From Coriobacteriales bacterium (GTDB taxonomy: Bacteria; Actinomycetota; Coriobacteriia; Coriobacteriales; UBA8131), in the NCBI GenBank assembly GCA_031256575.1, contig JAIRQI010000111.1:1-16531 (forward strand): DNA of 16,531 bases. The letters are read 5' to 3'. Position 1 is the stretch's first letter. Every line of letters starts with the position of its first letter. Made by a program: the position numbers and the translations under genes. Below, one piece after another: positions 1,327-9,873 of the stretch. Under the pieces are notes generated by a model. The model was not told the DNA's origin, did not search any database, and was given only the letters and a program-made list of their open reading frames with translations.

Positions 1327-2955
1327 ATGACAGAAGGTATCGCTGGTTCATTTGAATACTCAGACACCCAATCACTGCTCACGGCAGCCCGTACAGCGTT
1401 GGGTGCAGGCCAGGCCCGCCTGGCTATCCATCTTTATTGTGCAGCGTTTGAGATGGGCAACAATCAAGGTTCTGAAACTGGTGCAGATGTCGACCAAGAA
1501 CTGATTTCCGGTCTTCGGGTAGCTTTGAATCTAGCTCTGGAGATGGGCGATCGGGCGACTTCCGAGACTCTGCTCAGCGAGTTGGAGCCTTTTGACACCC
1601 CCGATCAATACGCAAGCGACTTGTTGCGCCTCCAAAGGCTGGCTGCTCCTGCAATCGATGCCCTGGTCATCGAGCCGGAGGCAACAGACAAAAGCCAGAG
1701 CGCAGAAGGTATTGCCCAGATTTTGACTGAGGCCACTGAAGGCATTGACTTCAATCAGTGGATAAAATCATTCCGCTCTGCTTTAGGCTTGAACAGTGAC
1801 GAAGGTTCAGACAAACCCGATTCACCATCGGCTTTACTGGCACTACCGCCAGGAATGCAGGGTCTGGCACGCAACCCGGAAGATCCTCCTGGGTTGATCA
1901 GGCTACCAAATAGGCCAGGTGACCTGGCTGGTCGCAGACATGAAGAACCAGAACGTGACATGTGGCGCCTGGATTATAACCACATCATTGGCTATCGCCA
2001 GGCTTTGGAGCAGATGCGTAGCTTCGGCTTCTTCCGTCGAGATGAACCAGAGCTACATCGTTTCGCTGACCGGGTCGCTCATCTACATGGTGTGCACCGG
2101 CTCAGCTTGACCCAACCCTTCTTGTTCAGCGGGCCAGATTTTAACGATGTTGGTATCTTTGCTCATGCTACTGCCAATGAGATCGGTTGGCCGCTGCTGA
2201 GCATCCGCGTCGAGATAGACGAGCGAGGTAATGGCACGATAAAGATTTCCGGGCCATTCAAGCACCGCTTCTTTGGTGGACCTCCTGACCTGACTGAGCT
2301 GAATACGCCTTGTACAGTGCTGCTTGAAGACATAGGAGCTTTGCAGAAGATTTTCTTGTCCGAGCAACGCAGCTTCTCGCGCGATGGCTCTGGGCCGGCC
2401 GGTTCAGGCTTCGGAGGCCCGGGCTTTGGTGGGCCGGGCGGCTTTGGAGGCCCCTCGGCAGGGCCAGGTTCCTGGGATCCAGCTTATCGCCGTAATGTTC
2501 GAATGGAGCTTGGCGGCTACCTACATGACCTGATTAATAAACCGGGAGTCTTTTTCATGGCTACTAGCCGGGCCGACTTCGTTTTAGATGACATGATTCT
2601 AGACATCGTCGGACCGCTGCATGAGGTACATATCGACCATCCGCTTGCTGATGAGCGGCGGACTATCTGGGAGCACTTAAAGCTCGAGCACAGCTCGTTG
2701 AAAGGCTTGGACACCGAGGAGCTGGTGGACTTCTCCACAGATACTCCACGTACCTTGCTCTTTGCAGTGACTCAAGAAGCGGTTGATTCGGCCTACCGGG
2801 CTTCACTGTCTTCCGGCCAATACCAAGCGGTCAAAATGAGTGACATTCTAACCGGCTTGGGTAGTTACATGGATCCCGATAGCTCGACCTATCAACGCTT
2901 GGAAGACGCTGTGGTAATCGAGTTTTTGCAGGACTTAGAAGAAAACAGCCAATAA
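1327..2955 (+). CDS. Degenerate AAA+ (FtsH/CDC48-like) protein with helical N-terminal region
   Basis: A 542-residue protein with no signal peptide or clear membrane segment. Residues about 15-105 form amphipathic helix pairs like TPR repeats, and 155-210 is a Pro/Gly/Asp-rich linker. Residues about 262-490 follow an FtsH/CDC48 AAA+ core block by block. FLFSGPDFNDVG (265-276) stands where the Walker A loop should be. TPCTVLLEDIGAL (327-339) sits at Walker B, with ED in place of DE. MATSRAD (411-417) sits at sensor 1 (normally ATNRPD). HIDHPLADERRTIWEHL (435-451) and a helical lid follow. The P-loop lysine and threonine and the arginine-finger segment are lost, so it probably does not hydrolyse ATP by the usual mechanism. 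A Gly/Phe/Pro-rich insertion (354-382, FGGP-type repeats) separates Walker B from sensor 1. The AAA+ relationship is inferred from pattern alone. Start: ATG with GAAAGGG six bases upstream. It may act as a scaffold or regulator; the function is unknown. Confidence 0.7.
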   Translation: MTEGIAGSFEYSDTQSLLTAARTALGAGQARLAIHLYCAAFEMGNNQGSETGADVDQELISGLRVALNLALEMGDRATSETLLSELEPFDTPDQYASDLLRLQRLAAPAIDALVIEPEATDKSQSAEGIAQILTEATEGIDFNQWIKSFRSALGLNSDEGSDKPDSPSALLALPPGMQGLARNPEDPPGLIRLPNRPGDLAGRRHEEPERDMWRLDYNHIIGYRQALEQMRSFGFFRRDEPELHRFADRVAHLHGVHRLSLTQPFLFSGPDFNDVGIFAHATANEIGWPLLSIRVEIDERGNGTIKISGPFKHRFFGGPPDLTELNTPCTVLLEDIGALQKIFLSEQRSFSRDGSGPAGSGFGGPGFGGPGGFGGPSAGPGSWDPAYRRNVRMELGGYLHDLINKPGVFFMATSRADFVLDDMILDIVGPLHEVHIDHPLADERRTIWEHLKLEHSSLKGLDTEELVDFSTDTPRTLLFAVTQEAVDSAYRASLSSGQYQAVKMSDILTGLGSYMDPDSSTYQRLEDAVVIEFLQDLEENSQ

Positions 2956-3055: not shown

Positions 3056-3499
3056 ATGGATGTAACACGTAGAACAGACTATGCGATCCGCCTGATAGCT
3101 GCTTTGACTTTAAGTGATGGAAAACCGCTTTCGGTTCGTGAAGCAGCCGAACAGTATGATGTACCCTATGCATTTGCCCGGAGCATCCAACACGCACTGG
3201 TCCAAGCCGGTCTAATCAGGTCGATTCGTGGCGCACAGGGAGGTATGCTGCTGTCTGTCGATCCCAACGAGCTGACCCTGTTTCGCCTGATCGAAGCAGT
3301 TCAGGGACCAGTCAATGTGGCTATTTGTACCACCGATAAAGACTGGTGCTCACGCGAAGAGCATTGTCAGTTCCATAAAGTCTGGGAAGGTGCGAACACC
3401 CTACTTGAAGACTACCTGGATTCTGTCAGCATCAAGCAACTGCTGGATGGTGAGACCGCCGGTCTGACCGATATGAGCAGTTCTTTGCACAAACGCTGA
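3056..3499 (+). CDS. Rrf2-family transcriptional regulator, possibly Fe-S binding
   Basis: A 147-residue DNA-binding protein of the Rrf2 family (IscR, NsrR, CymR and relatives). It opens with the family signature MDVTRRTDYAIRLIAAL, then a winged helix in which LSVREAAEQYDVPYAFARSI (25-44) is the helix-turn-helix and IRSIRGAQGGMLLS (54-67) is the wing, matching the family RG..GG pattern. Cys91, Cys98 and Cys104 occupy the loop where IscR and NsrR bind an Fe-S cluster, spaced C-X6-C-X5-C, so redox, iron or nitric-oxide sensing is plausible. Length is normal. The ATG at 3056 has GGAGGG nine bases upstream. It has its own promoter and lies 363 bases before rpsL, so it could control its own gene, the AAA-like gene or the str promoter; the target is unknown. 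Confidence 0.88.
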   Translation: MDVTRRTDYAIRLIAALTLSDGKPLSVREAAEQYDVPYAFARSIQHALVQAGLIRSIRGAQGGMLLSVDPNELTLFRLIEAVQGPVNVAICTTDKDWCSREEHCQFHKVWEGANTLLEDYLDSVSIKQLLDGETAGLTDMSSSLHKR

Positions 3500-3862: not shown

Positions 3863-4234
3863 TTGCCAACCATCAACCAGTTGATCCGTAAAGGGCGCAA
3901 GGCTCAGGCGGACAAGAAAAAGACTCCTGCTCTGATGGGCAACCCCCAGAAGCGTGGTGTGTGCACCCGCGTTCAGACCATTACCCCTAAGAAACCGAAC
4001 TCTGCTTTGCGCAAAGTCGCCCGTGTTCGCCTGGTCAATGGCATGGAAGTGACCGCTTACATTCCTGGTATCGGCCACAACCTACAGGAGCACTCGATGG
4101 TACTCATCCGAGGCGGTCGTGTTCGTGACCTGCCTGGTGTGCGCTATAAAGTCATTCGCGCCACACTGGACTGCGCTCCAGTCAGTGACCGCAAACAAGC
4201 CCGCTCGCGCTACGGCGCTAAGAAGCCGAAGTAA
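3863..4234 (+). CDS. rpsL: 30S ribosomal protein S12
   Basis: S12 sits at the interface side of the small subunit and contributes to decoding accuracy. The 123 residues include the hallmark [10 protein letters not shown] (28-37), [11 protein letters not shown] (41-51), GHNLQEHS (71-78) and [12 protein letters not shown] (84-95). The protein aligns with E. coli S12 without gaps through this region. Lys43 is conserved but position 88 is Arg (codon CGT) where most bacteria have Lys, a substitution known to give streptomycin resistance in E. coli and Mycobacterium. Asp89, the site of methylthiolation in many bacteria, is kept. The start is TTG, supported by GAAAGGA at 3849-3855, seven bases upstream, and by the family's N-terminus [10 protein letters not shown]. 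First gene after the strong promoter. Confidence 0.98.
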
Positions 4235-8086: not shown

Positions 8087-8716
8087 ATGGCAGGCTTGAA
8101 ACAAGACATCTTAAACCTTGAAGGCAAGAAGGTCGGCTCGACCAGCTTGGCTGAAAGTGTTTTTGCCATAGACCCGAACGTCCATGTCATGCATCAGGTA
8201 GTCCGGGCGCAGATGGCTGAGGCCCGTCAGGGTACCCATGCTACCAAGACCCGTGGCCAGGTACGCGGCGGTGGCCGTAAACCCTATCGGCAAAAGGGCA
8301 CCGGCCGGGCTCGCCAGGGCACGATTCGTGCTCCTCAGTACCGCGGTGGTGGCGTGGTCTTTGGGCCACACCCCAAAAGCTATGCAATCAAAGTCAACCG
8401 CCAGGAGGTCAAGCTGGCCTTACGCTCCGCTCTCTCCGCCAAGCTGGCCGACCAGACCTTGAAGATTCTCGACAATGTAGAGTTTGAGAAGCCCTCGACC
8501 AAAGCAGCCATCGCTGCTTTGAAGGCTCTAGATATCAAAGACCGCGTGACCCTGGTGGTCGACGACGAAGATGTCAACGCTTTCTTATCCTTCCGCAATA
8601 TACCCATCGTTCGTATCATCCCGGTTGCTGAGATGAATACCTATGATTTCATCGATAACAAGATGCTGGTATTGACCAAGGCTGCCTTAAGCCGTGTTGA
8701 GGAGGTGCTGGGATGA
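8087..8716 (+). CDS. rplD: 50S ribosomal protein L4
   Basis: L4 binds domain I of 23S rRNA, and its extended loop lines the exit tunnel. The loop is visible as GGGRKPYRQKGTGRARQGTI (61-80) followed by YRGGGVVFGP (85-94). At 209 residues the length is normal. A GTG lies immediately before the ATG (8084); I chose the ATG at 8087 because GAGG at 8077-8080 is better spaced for it, and the choice adds or removes one residue only. In Proteobacteria L4 also represses the S10 operon; whether it does so here is unknown. The end overlaps rplW by four bases (ATGA). Confidence 0.98.
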   Translation: MAGLKQDILNLEGKKVGSTSLAESVFAIDPNVHVMHQVVRAQMAEARQGTHATKTRGQVRGGGRKPYRQKGTGRARQGTIRAPQYRGGGVVFGPHPKSYAIKVNRQEVKLALRSALSAKLADQTLKILDNVEFEKPSTKAAIAALKALDIKDRVTLVVDDEDVNAFLSFRNIPIVRIIPVAEMNTYDFIDNKMLVLTKAALSRVEEVLG

Positions 8717-9000
8717 ACAAAGACCCCCGCCAGGTAATTCTCCGCCCGATAATCTCGGAGCGCTCTTACGACCTGCTAAACGACAACCGTTACACCTTCG
8801 AGGTAGCCAAGACTGCCAACAAGGTCGAAATCGGCAAGGCTGTCGAAGCCATCTTCGATGTCAAAGTGCTGAAGGTTAATACCATGAATGTCAGCGGCAA
8901 GCCAAAACGGGTCCGTTACGCCAAAGGGCTGACCCGTTCTTGGAAGAAAGCCATTGTGACTTTGGCTGCTGGTGACTCTATTGAAGCTTTCGGGCTTTAA
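8713..9000 (+). CDS. rplW: 50S ribosomal protein L23
   Basis: L23 sits at the mouth of the exit tunnel and is the docking site for trigger factor and SRP. The 95 residues contain the opening RPIISERSYDLL (11-22) and the basic strand region GKPKRVRYAKG (62-72). The start overlaps the rplD stop in an ATGA junction, with ribosome site GAGGAGG at 8699-8705 inside rplD, so translation is likely coupled. No unusual residues are apparent. Confidence 0.97.
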   Translation: MNKDPRQVILRPIISERSYDLLNDNRYTFEVAKTANKVEIGKAVEAIFDVKVLKVNTMNVSGKPKRVRYAKGLTRSWKKAIVTLAAGDSIEAFGL

Positions 9001-9042
9001 ATAATAAGCAGCTTCAAGCCAAGGTATAAAGAAAGGTAAAGA

Positions 9043-9873
9043 ATGGCTATCAAACAATACAAACCTACTTCACCGGGCCGCCGCTTTCAGTCTGTATCGG
9101 ATTTCAAGGAGATAACTGCGACCAAGCCTGAGAAGACCTTGACCGCTCCGTTGAAGAAGTATGCCGGTCGTAACAGCTACGGTCGCATCACAACCCGCCA
9201 TCAGGGCGGTGGCCACAAACGCAAGTACCGCATCATCGACTTCAAGCGCAACAAAGACGGTATTCCGGCCAAGGTTGCGACTATTGAATACGACCCCAAC
9301 CGCTCTGCCCGTATCGCTTTGCTGCATTATGCGGACGGTGCCAAGGCCTACATCCTGCATCCCAAGGGCTTGAAGGTCGGCGACATTGTGACCAGCGGGG
9401 CCGGTTCAGACATCAAAGCGGGCAATGCCCTGCAGCTGAAAGACATCCCGGTCGGTACCACCATCCATGCGGTGGAGCTGCGCCCCGGTCAGGGAGCAGC
9501 CATGGCCCGTAGCGCCGGTGCCTCTATTCAGCTGATGGGTAAAGAAGGTAACTATGCCGTGCTGCGCATGCCTTCCTCAGAGATGCGTCGGGTGTTGATT
9601 AACTGCCGGGCGACAATCGGCGAGGTCGGCAATGCCGAGCATTCCAACATCAAGATCGGCAAGGCAGGCCGTAACCGCTGGCTGGGCAAGCGCCCGACTG
9701 TTCGCGGTACCGTGATGAACCCCGTCGACCATCCGCATGGTGGTGGCGAGGGTAAGAACAAGAGCGCCGGCCGCCACCCGGTCACTCCCTGGGGTGTACC
9801 CACCAAGGGACACCGCACCCGCAATAAGAAGAAAGCCTCCAGCGCCCTGATTATCCGTCGGCGTCGGAAGTAA
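9043..9873 (+). CDS. rplB: 50S ribosomal protein L2
   Basis: L2 is a primary 23S rRNA binder needed for subunit joining and peptidyl-transferase activity. The 276 residues have [12 protein letters not shown] (52-63) in the OB-fold RNA-binding domain and [13 protein letters not shown] (226-238), where His230 corresponds to the conserved histidine near the catalytic centre in E. coli. A basic tail (IIRRRRK) closes it. Length is canonical. The ATG has GAAAGGTAA just upstream, in a 42-base gap after rplW that shows no notable structure. Confidence 0.98.

Follow-up and report, generated by a model that had tools for sequence, protein, structure and literature searches.

Degenerate AAA+ domains are already known as a kind. 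The D1 domains of PEX1 and PEX6, and the Torsins with LAP1 and LULL1, are degenerate or non-autonomous AAA+ domains in working complexes; in the excerpts of these sources, the D1 domains are eukaryotic and joined to an active D2 domain, and the Torsins are eukaryotic and need a cofactor for ATP hydrolysis (PMC6862443, PMC7175109). We analyzed a 16,531-nucleotide stretch of DNA from a Coriobacteriales bacterium (assembly GCA_031256575.1, contig JAIRQI010000111.1), hereafter the window, in which an open reading frame (ORF) at 1327..2955 on the + strand, stop included, encodes a pseudo-AAA+ protein of 542 amino acids. Like McrB-derived PcdA of Staphylococcus aureus, it is a bacterial AAA+ protein with eroded motifs in new use; PcdA, however, apparently belongs to another AAA clade and, as far as the excerpt of its report describes it, carries EVE domains, has lost the C-terminal helical bundle, retains the Walker A lysine, and is a weak NTPase (PMC10602043). 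The protein has its AAA fold and sequence profile in common with CDC48/p97, which has two active AAA domains and an N-domain, whereas the pseudo-AAA+ protein has a single AAA domain that appears dead. FtsH has an HExxH motif, which we saw in FtsH proteins of the order, whereas the pseudo-AAA+ protein has neither this protease motif nor a recognizable ATP site. Among the top 1-15 matches per search of the open PMC literature, which misses most subscription papers, there was no paper on this family. The stand-alone, family-wide version of a degenerate AAA+ protein with a re-charged ATP site is new. We consider it probable, with moderate confidence, that the ORF encodes a catalytically dead, full-length homologue of an uncharacterized bacterial TPR-AAA ATPase, acting as a nucleotide-independent scaffold or adaptor.

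Our census of the family comprised 140 distinct ORFs, the window's among them (138 have letters at the motif sites), plus two divergent members from family f9. The K, T, D, E, and N of active proteins fall in profile columns 275, 276, 334, 335, and 415. Walker A is degenerate in the window protein (GPDFNDVG, residues 269-276, 2131..2154; all features of this ORF lie on the + strand) and has Val275 at the lysine position; Lys occurs at 275 in 0 of the 140 sequences with letters there. Position 274, which is Gly in active proteins (11/11 active homologues), is Asp in 136/138 family sequences and Glu in 2/138. Walker B reads E334-D335-I-G337 (2326..2337) in place of D-E-x-D. Across the census it is ED at 334-335 in 94/138 sequences, mostly EN or QN otherwise, and never DE, with Asp at 334 in 4/138, Glu at 335 in none, and D337 in 133/138; many own-family members have eroded further, to ENID or QNID. 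At sensor 1 (residues 414-415, 2566..2571), the window protein has Ser-Arg, and Asn is absent from both positions throughout the census. Where the arginine fingers once stood, the window protein has Asp at 426 and Gly at 429 (2602..2613); across the census, 426 is acidic in 113/140 sequences and 429 in 79/140, and either is basic in 1/140. In the lid, Arg475 (2749..2751) stands at the Gly of SGAD in active homologues (Gly in 13/13) and is found in 138/138 sequences outside f9.

At the level of residues, the census shows loss of the ATP site both in cis (Walker A, Walker B order, and sensor 1) and in trans (arginine fingers). The initial annotation had listed these motifs as lost; its list holds overall, except that its sensor 1 position was off by one residue and that the arginine-finger segment, which it had called gone, has been substituted. 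That the loss runs through the whole family, a point on which its interpretation turned, is borne out by the absence of Lys275 and by the location of the sole full GxxxxGK[ST] match among the 140 proteins, which sits in the linker. A relocated intact P-loop was also discarded, as each of the 16 GK[ST] strings in these proteins precedes the aligned N-terminus, falls in the linker, or occupies some other non-equivalent site.

The AlphaFold model, structure search, and profile comparison predict an AAA+ core-plus-lid fold for the protein. In the model, residues 14-113 (1366..1665) form an N-terminal block (predicted local distance difference test, pLDDT, 77-98) with helices at residues 14-26, 30-48, 57-73, 76-86, and 92-113, which we describe as TPR-like purely from this predicted helix pattern; the structure search used the whole model rather than the N-terminal domain folded alone, so it says little about that domain. 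A variable and mostly disordered linker (approximately residues 140-207, 1744..1947; pLDDT <50 at 156-206) leads to the AAA+ module, which the model and profile comparisons delimit as N-linker, core, lid, and C-terminal helix (approximately residues 208-541, 1948..2949). Most of the AAA shell is retained in the model, lid and C-terminal helix included. The P..xR element (second region of homology) is kept, with P439 and R444 in 138/138 family sequences and likewise in 13/13 active homologues. All the listed structure matches are classical AAA proteins, in a list from which the absence of McrB or other AAA+ clades is uninformative. Judged from sequence and model together, the protein belongs by descent to the classical AAA clade.

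The predicted fold agrees with the AAA+ module that the initial annotation had drawn across residues 262-490. Its description of that module as FtsH/CDC48-like needs refining: the nearest relatives we found are of the CDC48 type rather than FtsH, and the protein is nearer still to an uncharacterized single-AAA family that shares its N-terminal domain. The HExxH zinc protease motif is absent from the 542-amino-acid sequence, and a CDC48 N-domain and second AAA were not seen, there being no Pfam match and a single AAA module in the model. The ORF itself had zero Pfam or NCBIfam matches at E ≤ 1, and PF00004 was matched by 5 of the 58 family members scanned singly (best E, 0.001).

L216, from a member of the class outside the order, has an intact AAA domain (GPPGCGKT, FDEID, TTN, and RPGRF) and a similar N-terminal region. 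A search with L216 found 2578 proteins at E ≤ 1e-40, of which 120 were listed and thirteen inspected: 12 of 421-438 amino acids, L216's own included, and one of 582 amino acids. GPPGCGKT is present in all thirteen and in no member of the pseudo-AAA+ family. P0036, P0043, P0052, P0065, P0095, L216 (= P0019), and others are single-AAA proteins of approximately 421-438 amino acids; most are unnamed, and the few names given are "SpoVK/Ycf46/Vps4 family AAA+-type ATPase," "AAA+ superfamily predicted ATPase," and, in Armatimonadota, "ATP-binding protein." These intact TPR-AAA proteins have an N-terminal helical domain and an AAA module homologous to those of the pseudo-AAA+ protein, in the same order, and carry GPPGCGKT, DE, TN, and arginine fingers, whereas the pseudo-AAA+ family has none of these.

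Scored per domain on A2, an alignment of 58 family sequences, the AAA domains of the thirteen intact homologues reach 46.6-70.9 bits; other single AAA+ domains tested reach at most 42.2-43.6 bits, and own-genome FtsH reaches 16.5 bits. Each of the thirteen additionally matches, in the correct order, the profile's N-terminal part (2.9-17.8 bits). In hhalign comparisons of the pseudo-AAA+ and intact TPR-AAA families, the N-domains align at E = 2.6e-9 (probability 96) and the AAA domains at E = 8e-25 (probability 99.6). The pseudo-AAA+ AAA domain aligns with CDC48 at E = 1.3e-12, and the controls gave E values of 0.14-0.24 for crossed domains and 0.46 for the N-domain against CDC48. The domain-wise scores and profile comparisons are best read as marking the pseudo-AAA+ family as a probable dead offshoot of the complete intact TPR-AAA architecture.

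In a tree of 54 AAA-domain sequences, pseudo and active proteins split with support of 100, f9 is deepest among the pseudo sequences, and L216 and L222 lie closest to the pseudo branch (support 84-85), in a fine order that long branches make unreliable. The simplest reading of this tree would be a single loss that predates the split of the lineages. In 20 kb, the L216 locus shows no marker gene, so its homology is established but its orthology is not. An intact P-loop in orthologues, which would have told against the initial annotation, was not found in the operon slot; outside the lineage, however, there are homologues in which the entire architecture is intact. We also discarded the idea that the deepest relatives keep an intact member in that slot, where the f9 genes (L214 and L215) are more degenerate: they keep Asp274, have Pro at 475, and carry P-loops of VPEGTDL or VPEGTDC and Walker B segments of LDNAD or ISAAN.

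The intact relatives (P0020, P0021, P0036, P0043, P0052, and others) form a GPPGCGKT single-AAA family with a conserved N-terminal helical domain and a sub-threshold likeness to anti-phage IetA models. Three intact homologues scanned with PADLOC matched IetA models at 124.8-129.8 bits, with the match starting ahead of the AAA domain in two of the three, and L216 scored 128.8 bits against NCBIfam IteA_antiphage, for which the cut-off is 510. A distant link between the intact family and IetA may exist on these scores. PADLOC gave no match for the window protein or that of L063, and we dropped a defense role.

Within its lineage, the gene is almost universal. A protein search returned 16 relatives, those with names coming from Coriobacteriia, Coriobacteriales, or Actinomycetia metagenome-assembled genomes or being called "hypothetical protein." P0001, on another contig (33.4 kb) in a public collection, is 98% identical to the window protein. 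The alignment from the 16-relative search (A1) matched 130 of 396 genomes of the class, one of which (G087) holds an intact homologue instead. A2, run on 396 genomes of the phylum, separated 13 genomes at 514.9-686.1 bits from 89 at ≤46.4 bits. The latter match A2 solely within profile positions 252-506, have GxxxxGK[ST] in the matched frame in 19/19 genomes fetched, and look like ordinary AAA+ proteins. In f3, the family of G009 and probably Eggerthellaceae, the gene is present in 133/138 genomes (weakest best match, 1.1e-51) and in 92/92 of those ≥90% complete and ≤5% contaminated. The window's own family has it in 31/33 genomes and in 4/4 high-quality ones. The 20 unmatched genomes listed from the class search come without exception from two further families within the order (f2 and f4). 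The gene looks single-copy, with one match in most genomes and second matches not individually inspected. There were zero tblastn matches to plasmids and phages at 1e-5, and a mobile-element origin was dropped.

We summarized the ratio of nonsynonymous to synonymous substitution rates (dN/dS) for those 20 of 56 non-overlapping pairs that have AAA identity ≥0.86, two of them from the window's family and none including the window; distant pairs, apparently saturated, were left out. In the AAA domain, median dN/dS was 0.082 (maximum, 0.289), and in the linker the median was 0.542 (17 of those 20 pairs). The dead AAA domain is under strong purifying constraint. These values and the near-universal retention of the gene support the selection for structure that the initial annotation had proposed.

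Under the scaffold reading, the protein would neither bind nor hydrolyze ATP. The helix behind the former P-loop begins at residue 272 in the model, three residues ahead of the lysine position, and this early start may close the phosphate loop. Positions 274 and 475 presumably line the nucleotide pocket, as they do in structures of AAA relatives. The conserved Asp274 and Arg475 plausibly bond together, locking core to lid, and this bond would do the job of ATP. The protein would then be a rigid scaffold or adaptor, in which the TPR-like domain may hold one partner and the pseudo-AAA shell another.

We compared the neighborhoods of 139 distinct proteins where the flank was long enough, using phmmer at 1e-8 with few queries; the counts are lower bounds. 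An HAD hydrolase or RdgB-HAD fusion lies upstream in at least 110/127 loci (either strand counted), a co-directional MutY gene downstream in at least 81/107, and a co-directional Rrf2 gene within 600 bases in at least 75/133. Examples of neighbor domains are HAD-IB hydrolase, Ham1/RdgB plus HAD, Rrf2, MutY, RNase PH, and glutamate racemase, and HAD, Rrf2, and MutY surround the pseudo-AAA gene in both f9 genomes. The commonest operon partners (HAD phosphatase or RdgB-HAD, Rrf2 regulator, and MutY) weakly suggest a housekeeping role in the nucleotide pool or DNA damage. The upstream gene is sometimes long in the window's wider family, and in L033 one ORF (8458-9837, + strand) joins an RdgB/Ham1 nucleotide pyrophosphatase to an HAD hydrolase; elsewhere, as in L063, HAD stands alone.

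In the window, the usual upstream neighbor is a C-terminal piece of an HAD-IB hydrolase truncated at the contig start (1..288, + strand; Pfam, NCBIfam), which scores just below the Pfam cut-off. Between it and the pseudo-AAA gene lies an antisense DUF1638 gene (329-1156, - strand; Pfam), seen at the window alone among the 139 neighborhoods. The frequent downstream neighbor, an Rrf2-family regulator (3056..3499, + strand; Pfam, NCBIfam), has three Cys spaced C-x6-C-x5-C, which would fit an Fe-S cluster sensor with the spacing of IscR. Next comes rpsL (S12; 3863-4234, + strand; Pfam), apparently with a TTG start codon, and further ribosomal genes and EF-G, recognized by eye, lie downstream. The initial annotation had placed the gene beside a ribosomal cluster, which is correct locally and does not extend to a conserved neighborhood: among 107 neighborhoods with ≥2500 bases downstream, EF-G appears in just L032 and L033, apart from the window itself. 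We dropped a role tied to the ribosomal cluster.

Several points weigh against the scaffold reading. The operon partners are routine housekeeping genes, and 58/133 loci gave no Rrf2 match. The N-domain matches of the intact homologues are individually weak, and over whole proteins two-AAA CDC48 scores (up to 82.0 bits) about equal those of intact TPR-AAA proteins (up to 82.4 bits), because two domains add up; per domain, the intact TPR-AAA proteins are clearly ahead. Because the f9 members have Pro at 475, the Asp-Arg lock cannot extend to the whole family. The gene lies in two frames in three genomes (G360:C1:2328504-2330290, G370:C106:22501-24121, and G787:C81:15730-17234), which points to breakage or misassembly of some copies. 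These copies, together with the loss of every catalytic motif, would fit decay to a pseudogene or an assembly artifact. We reject that as a general explanation, and find it scarcely credible, because of the conservation (92/92 high-quality f3 genomes) and the dN/dS of ~0.08 in the AAA domain versus 0.54 in the linker. By analogy, degenerate motifs alone are no proof of inactivity: the excerpt on PcdA describes an eroded Walker A, yet weak hydrolysis of ATP and GTP (PMC10602043). This precedent, ED kept at 334-335 in 94/138 sequences, and D337 in 133/138 would suit a residual switch, in which weak NTP binding in a non-canonical pocket (swapped Walker B acids and Arg475) steers self-assembly. 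The Walker A remnant of PcdA, however, retains K313, whose replacement affects function according to the same excerpt (PMC10602043), whereas Lys275 is absent in 140/140 sequences here, the P-loop Gly is nearly always Asp, and Walker B has eroded to ENID or QNID in many own-family members; we judge such a switch quite unlikely.

Weakly catalytic subunits regulate other AAA+ rings, and the protein could be a dead subunit that regulates an active AAA+ protein in a mixed ring, with FtsH as the obvious classical-AAA candidate. The retained AAA shell, lid and C-terminal helix included, would fit such a ring, and FtsH with HExGH is the strongest PF00004 match in the 7 probable Eggerthellaceae genomes checked. 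However, the arginine-finger positions are basic in only 1/140 sequences, so a neighbor's ATP site could not be completed, and the protein is without the FtsH protease motif. Among the conserved neighbors seen, none stood out as an AAA+ gene, in comparisons that included no search aimed at AAA+ genes, and G070 has a separate 339-amino-acid AAA protein too. We consider a mixed ring unlikely. Very doubtful, in our view, is an ATP-free machine part, in which opposite charges in the old ATP site would replace core-lid and subunit-subunit bonds to give a closed module, perhaps a constitutive ring. The cis pair (P-loop Gly to Asp274 and lid Gly to Arg475) is present in all 138 non-f9 sequences with letters there, the window's included and two Glu counted. 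The trans pair (P-loop Gly to Arg272 and arginine fingers to Asp/Glu at 426/429) is present in most members, the window's own protein excepted (Phe272), and the idea of a trans bond is weakened because Arg272 and the acids fail to covary (acid in 101/120 sequences with Arg272 and 17/20 without). If this idea were true, a whole bacterial family would depend on a permanently closed, ATP-free module.

Each of these precedents (PcdA, PEX1/PEX6 D1, and the Torsin partners) is either an individual protein or the dead half of an active one. In the present case, a stand-alone AAA+ protein that appears dead is kept throughout a whole bacterial family, with an intact sister architecture available for comparison. 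The family therefore offers a clean test case for the function of an AAA+ shell that has no ATP to work with and for the route from motor to scaffold, and the charge changes in the ATP site yield specific, easily tested predictions. In this family, evolution seems to have reused an ATP-driven motor as a structural or regulatory part.
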